A stretch of DNA of 5,617 bases from an uncultured Eggerthellaceae bacterium. GTDB taxonomy: Bacteria > Actinomycetota > Coriobacteriia > Coriobacteriales > Eggerthellaceae. Positions 3,590 through 5,617 of the stretch are shown here, piece by piece. The stretch lies in assembly GCA_902497215.1 (NCBI GenBank), contig CABVEH010000091.1, positions 1 through 5,617 of the forward strand, given 5' to 3'. The position numbers were made by a program, and so were the translations under genes. Within the stretch, counting starts at the first letter, position 1. Every line of letters starts with the position of its first letter. The notes beneath the pieces were generated by a model. That model was given only the letters and a program-made list of their open reading frames with translations. It did not search any database and was not told where the DNA came from.

Positions 3590-4357
3590 ATGAACGGATT
3601 TCTGGAATACGTGCCGGGGGATTCCTTCCTGCACAAGCTGAACCCCGTCACAAAGGTCGTGTTCGCGATGGTGTTCGCCATTGCGTGCTTCTGCACGGGC
3701 AACCTGGTGTTCCTGTGCCTGATGCTGGCATTCGGGATCGCCATGGCGGCATCGTGCTCGATGATGCGGCAGACCATCGGGCTGATGAAGGCGGTGCTCG
3801 TCTTCTCGCTGGTGCTGGCGGTGCTGCTTCTGCTGACCACGCCCAAGGGCGACATGCTGGTGCAGCTGCCGTGGGGATACATAGGCACCGGGTCGGTGCT
3901 TGCGGCCGTCACGACGGTGGTGCGCCTTGAGGCGGCCGCCATCCCGCTGTTCCTCACCTTCTACGTGACGAAGATGACCGACATGTCGAACTCGTTCGTG
4001 AAGGTCCTGCACGTGCCTTACAAGTACGCGTTCACGTTCGCGTCAACGGTGCACTTCATCCCCGTGTTCATGAACGACATGAAGGGGATAATGGAGGCCC
4101 AGACCGCCCGCGGCGTGGAGTTCGACCAAGGCGGCCTGGCGAAGAAGGTGCGCTTGATGGTGCCGCTGTGCGTGCCGCTCCTGGTGAGCTCGGTGCGCAA
4201 GACGAACAGCTCGGCCATCGCAGCGGAGGTGCGGGGGTTCAACCTGCGCACGCGCGAAAGCGGCTACAAGCAATACCCCATGACTGGCGCCGACTGGGGA
4301 GTGCTGGCCCTGGGCGTGGCGCTTCTGGCCATCGCGATCGCCATCAACTTCATATAG
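3590..4357 (+). CDS. ecfT: ECF transporter transmembrane protein EcfT
   Basis: This 255-residue membrane protein joins the S component to the two ATPases. The ATG directly abuts the upstream stop, with an AAGGAAGAGGGGG ribosome binding tract at 3569-3581 inside the end of the upstream gene. The N-terminus (SFLHKLNPVTK, 12-22) is the usual EcfT opening. Hydrophobic segments follow at about 23-60, 69-88, 102-130 and a final one at 234-254. The two coupling-helix signatures are visible: ARG at 173-175 (AQTARGVEF) and a variant VRG at 214-216 (AAEVRGFNLR), the second normally ARG. Length and layout are normal for the family. As the last gene of the operon it ends 31 bp from the stop of the convergent ddl; that gap holds only a weak 4-bp hairpin without a T-run, so no terminator is called. 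Confidence 0.93.
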   Translation: MNGFLEYVPGDSFLHKLNPVTKVVFAMVFAIACFCTGNLVFLCLMLAFGIAMAASCSMMRQTIGLMKAVLVFSLVLAVLLLLTTPKGDMLVQLPWGYIGTGSVLAAVTTVVRLEAAAIPLFLTFYVTKMTDMSNSFVKVLHVPYKYAFTFASTVHFIPVFMNDMKGIMEAQTARGVEFDQGGLAKKVRLMVPLCVPLLVSSVRKTNSSAIAAEVRGFNLRTRESGYKQYPMTGADWGVLALGVALLAIAIAINFI

Positions 4358-4388
4358 AGGATAAATGTGCGCCCCGCGCGGCGAGTTG

Positions 4389-5324
4389 CTACAGCTCGAA
4401 GGCGGCGCGGCCGGCGGCCACCTGCACCAGCTCGTCGAGCACGGCCGACATGGAAAGCCCGGCCGTTTCGCACGATAGCGGGAACAGCGAATGGGGGGTC
4501 ATGCCGGGGGACACGTCGACCTCGAAGCATTTGGCCTGCGCGCCGTCCCAGATCATGTCGATGCGTCCAAGGTCGCGCACGCTGTAAGCGCGGTACACCT
4601 CGAGTGCCGCGCGCTCTATCTCGGCGCGGATGCCCTCGGCCTGCACCGGGTCGTCGGAAAGCGATTCTGGGCGCGGCGGGCAGCGGAATTCCACCAACTC
4701 GGCGTCGAGGCGTGCGGCGGCGTCGAAGAACTGCCCCTGCGGGACTATCTCCACAGGTGGAAGCGCATGCGCGTCCCATCCGGTGCCGAGGATCGAAACG
4801 GAAAGCTCGACGCCTTCGATCCACTGCTCGATGTTCACGGCGTCGTCGTACGACAGTGCGTCAAGGATAGCCTCGCCCAGGTCGTCCTCGGACTCCACCT
4901 TGTGGACGCCCAGGGCGCTGCCGCCGTGGGCGGGCTTTACGGCCACGGGATAGCCGCCGGCAACGCGCTCCTTCACCAGGTCCAAAGCCGTGGCGGCGCC
5001 CATCTCCTTGAAGGCGTCGCGTGCGAGGAAGACGCCTTGGGGCCACGAGGCCACGCCGTCTTCGCTCGTGAGGTCGCGGTATTTCGCCAGGCTGGAATGC
5101 AGGGCATCCTTGTTGTAGGCGCGATGGCACACGCTGGCCGGGGAGCCCACGAAGGGGATGCCTAGGAACTCCAGCAGGCTCTGGATGGTGCCATCTTCGC
5201 CGTGCTTTCCGTGCAGTGCGCTGTACACGACGTCGGGCTTCTCGCTTCGAAGCGTGGGGACCAGTTCCAGATTGGTGTCCAGCGGCACAACCTTGTGCCC
5301 GGCCTCTTCCAGCGCCTCGCACAC
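4389..5324 (-). CDS. ddl: D-alanine--D-alanine ligase, 5'-truncated copy (lacks first 22 codons)
   Basis: Ddl is a cytoplasmic ATP-grasp ligase that makes the D-Ala-D-Ala dipeptide for peptidoglycan. Ligase homology runs from the Gly codon at 5333-5331 (GKRVCEALEEAGHKV) to TAG at 4391-4389; GTG 5324 is only the first formal start codon. The frame is open up to a TGA at 5354-5352, but 5336-5351 encodes an unrelated GCSNVG, with no ATG or ribosome binding site. Visible motifs: ALHGKHGEDG, ATP-grasp lysine PVAVKPAHGGSALG, GRIDMIWD, and FEVDVSPGMTPHSL near the C-terminus. The usual E-V-N metal-binding triplet reads E-V-D, and the omega-loop (usually YDYxAKY) reads FFDAAARL. The body is otherwise undamaged, without internal stops; joined to the 22 codons at 5508-5571 it would make 336 residues, a normal length. 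As drawn this copy should not give active enzyme, because the GGxSxEREVSL substrate-binding N-terminus is missing. Confidence 0.88.
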   Translation of the reverse strand: MCEALEEAGHKVVPLDTNLELVPTLRSEKPDVVYSALHGKHGEDGTIQSLLEFLGIPFVGSPASVCHRAYNKDALHSSLAKYRDLTSEDGVASWPQGVFLARDAFKEMGAATALDLVKERVAGGYPVAVKPAHGGSALGVHKVESEDDLGEAILDALSYDDAVNIEQWIEGVELSVSILGTGWDAHALPPVEIVPQGQFFDAAARLDAELVEFRCPPRPESLSDDPVQAEGIRAEIERAALEVYRAYSVRDLGRIDMIWDGAQAKCFEVDVSPGMTPHSLFPLSCETAGLSMSAVLDELVQVAAGRAAFEL

Positions 5325-5335
5325 GCGCTTTCCGC
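5290..5335. repeat. Inverted repeat, left arm (inside ddl codons 22-37)
   Basis: These 46 bp are the exact reverse complement of 5572-5617, without a mismatch. They encode GKRVCEALEEAGHKV on the minus strand; the identity stops sharply at 5335/5336. The left limit is set only by the window edge cutting the partner arm, so the true repeat may be much longer, up to the whole ddl gene. Confidence 0.95.
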
Positions 5336-5378
5336 CGACGTTGGAGCATCCTCAAGGCAGGCGGAAGTAGTAGGTGCA

Positions 5379-5450
5379 GTGTGTCGGGGGACGTTCACTT
5401 TTGACACGCCCTCGGAAGGGTGTGTCAAAAGTGAACGTCCCCCGACACAC
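5379..5450. repeat. Long near-perfect palindrome (34-bp stem, 4-nt loop), REP-like hairpin
   Basis: Bases 5379-5412 pair with 5417-5450 with a single G-T wobble (5408/5421) and a CGGA loop. The arm begins GTGTGTCGGGGGACG and continues TTCACTTTTGACAC. The palindrome axis (5414.5) differs from the axis of the flanking ddl repeat (5453.5), so it is a separate element. There is no T-run on either side, so it is a poor intrinsic terminator; a REP/BIME-type dispersed palindrome or a small non-autonomous mobile element is more likely. Copy number in the genome cannot be seen here. Confidence 0.85.
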
Positions 5451-5507
5451 CAACTCCTGCAGCAGCAAGAAAACGGGCGCGTCCCGTATGACAGACAAGG
5501 AGAGGAA

Positions 5508-5617
5508 ATGGGTCTGAAGGTTGCCGTCCTGATGGGCGGGTCGTCGTTCGAGCGCGAGTTCTCGCTGGAAAGCGGAAAGCGCGTGTGCGAGGCGCTGGAA
5601 GAGGCCGGGCACAAGGT
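5508..5617 (+). CDS. ddl: D-alanine--D-alanine ligase N-terminus, runs off right edge
   Basis: The ATG at 5508 has a strong AAGGAGAGG ribosome binding site (5497-5505). The 36 visible codons begin MGLKVAVLMGGSSFER, the classic Ddl opening; Glu15, the residue that positions the first D-Ala in E. coli DdlB, is present. Codons 22-36 (from 5572) are identical, base for base, to the start of the minus-strand ddl body. A 5-bp hairpin (ACGGG 5473-5477, CCCGT 5483-5487) lies in the leader just upstream; no clear promoter is seen between the large palindrome and the start. Whether a full ligase follows on this strand is outside the window. Confidence 0.85.
   Translation, partial: MGLKVAVLMGGSSFEREFSLESGKRVCEALEEAGHK
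5572..5617. repeat. Inverted repeat, right arm (cut by window end)
   Basis: This is the partner of 5290-5335: 46 of 46 bases match in reverse complement, reaching the last base of the window. It encodes ddl codons 22-36 on the plus strand. The 236 bp between the arms (5336-5571) contain the large palindrome and the ddl start. Confidence 0.95.

Follow-up and report, generated by a model that had tools for sequence, protein, structure and literature searches.

A D-alanine–D-alanine ligase gene split across an inverted repeat in an Eggerthellaceae contig, very probably a technical fold-back rather than a genetic switch

In invertible DNA switches, an invertase controls the inversion of a segment that carries the start or the promoter of a gene. 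A layout of this kind is seen at the right end of the stretch of DNA analysed here (5,617 nt; hereafter, the window), where the gene for D-alanine–D-alanine ligase (ddl) lies in two pieces on opposite strands and, as in such switches, inverted repeats flank the segment with the gene start. Nevertheless, no recombinase was recognised among the main frames of the window, no partner body or alternative orientation was seen in the sequences searched, and the split ddl is very probably no genetic switch.

Inverted joins between neighbouring sequences may also be technical. Palindromic reads have reportedly been obtained after whole-genome amplification, and in another study inverted-repeat chimeras are said to have appeared in nanopore ligation libraries.

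More detailed figures exist for MDA. In the passages of Lasken and Stockwell 2007 that deal with single-cell E. coli MDA, 406 of 475 chimeras (85%) are inverted; these mostly joined segments less than 10 kb apart and, below 10 kb, became rarer with distance, while hairpin self-priming is excluded there as a major route (PMC1855051). The window resembles the inverted chimeras of MDA (phi29) described in those passages in that it brings together, inverted and with an interval in between, two segments that lie near each other, within the favoured range of less than 10 kb (PMC1855051). Unlike these chimeras, the window derives from a sample that may or may not have been amplified. Chimeras that arise at inverted and palindromic repeats during library preparation have been described as well, together with a model for them, PDSM; these also consist of inverted native stretches tied to inverted or palindromic repeats, although there the joint is made by a native repeat, whereas the palindrome of the window is internal to the spacer and a native repeat is not known at the joint (PMC10908179). 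Finally, when the locus is compared with the Ddl of other Eggerthellaceae, its pieces match a homologue of 336 aa, and the difference is the split layout, which is present in the contig only.

Layout of ddl in the window

The beginning of ddl is found on the forward strand. By inspection of the sequence, an ATG at 5508 has the ribosome-binding site AAGGAGAGGAA just 5′ of it, and translation rightward from this ATG gives a Ddl N-terminus of 36 residues that runs to the end of the window. A preliminary description of this DNA had reported 22 codons with a ribosome-binding site at 5508-5571; the start and the binding site stand, but the count has to be corrected, as this interval holds 21 full codons plus one base.

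The rest of ddl reads leftward, as had also been proposed. It corresponds in the list of open reading frames to 4389-5324 on the minus strand, which encodes 311 aa from a GTG, and Pfam identifies it as Ddl, with PF07478 at 124.9 bits (cut-off 24) and PF01820 at 46 bits (cut-off 34.6). The match to PF01820, the N-domain, covers positions 87-121 of the profile only. The NCBIfam Ddl models listed match the body below their curated cut-offs (185.2 versus 243 bits for the best), which is expected of a Ddl body that is without its start. An in-frame TGA is read a few codons 5′ of the GTG, inside the spacer. Thus, as laid out in the window, the body lacks a native start.

The codons shared by the two pieces make up two inverted arms, 5290-5335 and 5572-5617, which are complementary at 46/46 positions with 236 nt between them (Table 1). 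This bears out the perfect 46-bp inverted repeat, open-ended at the window edge, that had been described earlier, since the second arm stops at the very last base. The spacer, which is present once, is therefore bordered by flanks that are exact inverted copies of each other; of the second flank, the window contains 46 nt only. The identity of the arms includes third codon positions, so that there is zero divergence between the copies, and a perfect match over 46 nt excludes chance. In a scan for exact inverted 16-mers, the window contained the arm pair and a palindrome at 5379-5450, and no other.

The window opens with a frame that lacks its 5′ end, that of a sodium:solute symporter (to 746), and closes with the final base of arm 2; it is therefore probably a short contig in full. 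A 26-mer across the junction had 0 matches in a collection of viral contigs that is not expected to contain such a chromosome, positions 4300-5617 had no match in plasmid records, and Rfam returned 0 matches for the whole window.

Table 1. Features of the split ddl region, with positions in the window
Feature	Positions	Strand	Evidence
ddl body lacking the initial codons; frame open over 4389-5324, GTG start	4389..5335	-	296/311 to P0001 residues 26-336
Arm 1: ddl codons 22 onward, at the inner end of the leftward body	5290..5335	-	100% complementary to 5572-5617
Chimeric junction (inferred) between ddl codon 22 and inverted upstream DNA	5335..5336		Arms; collinear ddl in 34/35 loci, the 35th cut by the contig edge
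Stretch of 43 nt between junction and palindrome, presumed ddl upstream region	5336..5378		Short-query blastn, 73 loci: no match
Near-perfect palindrome, REP-like: 72 nt, 34-nt arms, 4-nt loop, 97%	5379..5450		Similar stretches in few relatives
True 5′ end of ddl, ATG and codons 1-36	5508..5617	+	36/36 to P0001 residues 1-36; ribosome-binding site just upstream
Arm 2: the ddl codons of arm 1 again, following on from the rightward start; stops where the window stops	5572..5617	+	Complementarity; translation

The ddl locus in relatives

When proteins were searched with the ddl body, 7998 candidates were scored and 2413 of them proved to be homologues, of which the best 120 were compared. Among these 120, the closest homologues are 95% identical to the body and have 336 aa; P0001-P0004, all of 336 aa, range from 91 to 95% over the body. 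The preliminary description had predicted that an inversion would rebuild a Ddl of about 336 residues, a length with which the closest homologues agree. One homologue, P0001, takes both pieces when they are compared separately, with 95% identity for the body and 100% for the 36 residues of the start. In the alignment, moreover, the offset of 25 residues that an intact gene has between start and body was found in 120/120 of the best 120 of 2413 homologues.

At the DNA level, a scan of genome contigs yielded 35 ddl loci, the best of which is 84% identical. Start and body are co-directional, with an open frame, in 34 of the 35; in the other one, L033, the contig edge truncates the locus. The spacing between start and body is exactly 75 nt in 33 of the 34 co-directional loci; in the remaining one, which was counted as open and co-directional, the offset is -8 instead of 75, and our guess is that its best body segment falls in another frame. 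The collinear form is consequently the only orientation of ddl observed in relatives (34/35 loci), and no split ddl occurs among the 34 that permit a judgement. Judged by the nearest loci, the source is an Eggerthellaceae bacterium close to Adlercreutzia and, with the best locus at 84%, probably a species that differs from all the genomes found.

The surroundings of ddl vary among these loci. In many of 28 loci, the frame 5′ of ddl, which lies at a variable distance, is what we take to be an aminotransferase. Two loci have a second ddl-like gene upstream of ddl (L003:3151-4065 and L005:525-1430), which is co-directional with it and 34% identical over the body. This gene was considered as a possible switch partner and rejected, since it has the same direction and the two 5′ ends share an exact run of at most 8 nt. 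Native inverted repeats near ddl also differ between loci: in seven control loci examined for exact 16-mers, there were 28 inverted pairs in L003, 3 in L004, 1 in L010 and 0 in the other four. The pairs of L003, of up to 76 nt, lie on both sides of ddl, at about 1829-1960, 4166-4339, 5645-5859 and 6957-7159. The palindrome of the window had no blastn-short match in L003, whose repeats are probably of another type.

Given the native inverted repeats around ddl in L003, an inverted repeat near this gene is by itself no proof of an artefact, and a real rearrangement has to be weighed. For instance, a recent head-to-head inverted duplication could have left an intact rightward ddl past 5617 and, as a 5′-truncated relic, the leftward copy. 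Repeats as numerous as those flanking ddl in L003 could promote such an event, and a true repeat would end the contig inside arm 2 just as is observed. Nevertheless, a duplication is unlikely: 0/34 assessable loci show this arrangement, the copies are without divergence over 46 nt, and a repeat of limited length should break the contig at its far end too, whereas the contig runs on for 5.3 kb.

Spacer, palindrome and origin of the split

The palindrome in the spacer is predicted, with DNA parameters, to form a strong hairpin (-43.9 kcal/mol). It is not centred between the arms, as its distance is 43 nt to one of them and 121 nt to the other. Of 138 genomes searched in the family, only G078 contains an exact 22-mer of the palindrome, with 7 matches, and both palindrome arms are present there at 2 of 5 sites. 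When the whole spacer was used as the query, palindrome-like matches were obtained in G127 (10), G078 (9), G080 (2) and G132 (1), although a palindrome can match both strands and the number of places is thus smaller than that of matches. The exact 22-mer is missing from G127, G080 and G132. In a class-level sample, 3 of 296 genomes had a match to the palindrome, and among the relatives searched several copies per genome were seen in G078 and G127 only. Palindrome-like stretches of REP type are carried by the G078 loci L057-L063 and by the G127 locus L067. From these comparisons of sequence, the most fitting interpretation of the palindrome is a dispersed, REP-like element, rare among the relatives searched.

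Other queries from this region gave no matches. A 27-mer of the palindrome had 0 matches in the 35 ddl loci, and its 22-mer had 0 in the viral contigs, where such a chromosome is not expected. Similarly, short-query blastn of 5336-5378 and 5451-5507 against 73 loci gave no match; in consequence, the native neighbour sequence was not recovered.

The likeness of the palindrome to multi-copy elements of two relatives is relevant to a further explanation, namely, a pure assembly error in which a dispersed palindromic repeat collapsed and no chimeric molecule existed. However, the junction at 5335/5336 lies 43 nt outside the palindrome, and the only repeat there is the arm itself, so that a read or molecule joining both sides would still be needed. 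An error of this kind is extremely improbable.

The headline reading of the preliminary description was that of an invertible switch of an essential ligase. In such a switch, inversion of 5336-5571 would toggle ddl, or shift a single start from one ligase body to another. Formally, inverted repeats that flank a start-carrying segment do have the geometry of an invertible segment. Still, the arms are plain ddl coding sequence, and Pfam and NCBIfam recognised no dedicated recombinase when applied to the six main frames in these 5.6 kb, although for one frame (1128-1847) they returned no family at all. Within the window there is no second ddl body either, and the second ddl-like gene of L003 and L005 offers, with its common direction and short exact run, no such partner; a split gene, as noted above, was met in none of the assessable loci. 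In addition, a phase in which the cell is without the ligase would be expected to be harmful. The headline was thus not supported. Within one literature collection, no paper that combines a D-alanine–D-alanine ligase with phase variation and inversion was found. It is highly doubtful that the segment is invertible in this sense, and just as doubtful that the start was flipped by recombination between inverted ddl codons beside the REP-like palindrome to give a reversible on/off switch of ddl. If it were a true switch, it would make an essential cell-wall enzyme phase-variable.

In all likelihood, the split ddl is instead a technical fold-back chimera of one ordinary intact gene. Of the three meanings that had been offered at the outset, an assembly or amplification chimera is the one best supported, by the homologues and by the collinear loci. 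It had been argued against a fold-back that the palindrome and the arms have different axes. This argument fails, because the axis of the arms is set by the site where a 3′ end re-anneals and does not depend on the place of a native repeat in the spacer; the palindrome itself may be native.

The events may be pictured as follows. The organism would have a single ordinary and intact ddl. In amplification or library preparation, a strand extending through ddl would switch templates, to the complementary strand at a distance of 236 nt, and copy back, and the chimeric molecules would then enter the assembly. As a result, the true start region would come to lie inverted beside the body, and identical ddl codons would flank it left and right. 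The assembler would halt after 46 nt of arm 2, since the sequence onward would repeat the contig in reverse complement and a graph assembler stops at such a point; an arm of this length would correspond to a k-1 overlap if k were 47. The hairpin-forming repeat of 72 nt in the spacer may promote the fold-back. Alternatively, it may be incidental to the formation of the chimera, because hairpin self-priming is excluded as a major MDA route in the relevant passages of PMC1855051. MDA is, in any case, only one candidate origin of the chimera. One point against a fold-back is that, for the assembler to prefer the chimeric path, low coverage or many chimeric molecules are needed.

A short contig that ends in the reverse complement of its own interior should therefore be regarded first as a possible fold-back product. 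This caution holds even when a palindrome in the spacer lies on another axis.

Other genes of the window

According to Pfam and NCBIfam, the six main frames comprise the symporter, one frame with no family match, three genes of an ECF transporter, and ddl. The frame that has no match in either collection (1128-1847, 239 aa) lies directly before the ECF ATPase genes and, by its position, probably encodes the substrate-binding (S) component. The T gene of the ECF transporter and ddl are convergent and 31 nt apart (4358-4388). In at least 11 genomes among the matches listed, a T gene and ddl are found on one contig, at a distance of at least about 376 kb. Their adjacency in the window may represent a lineage-specific gene order or a second artificial join.
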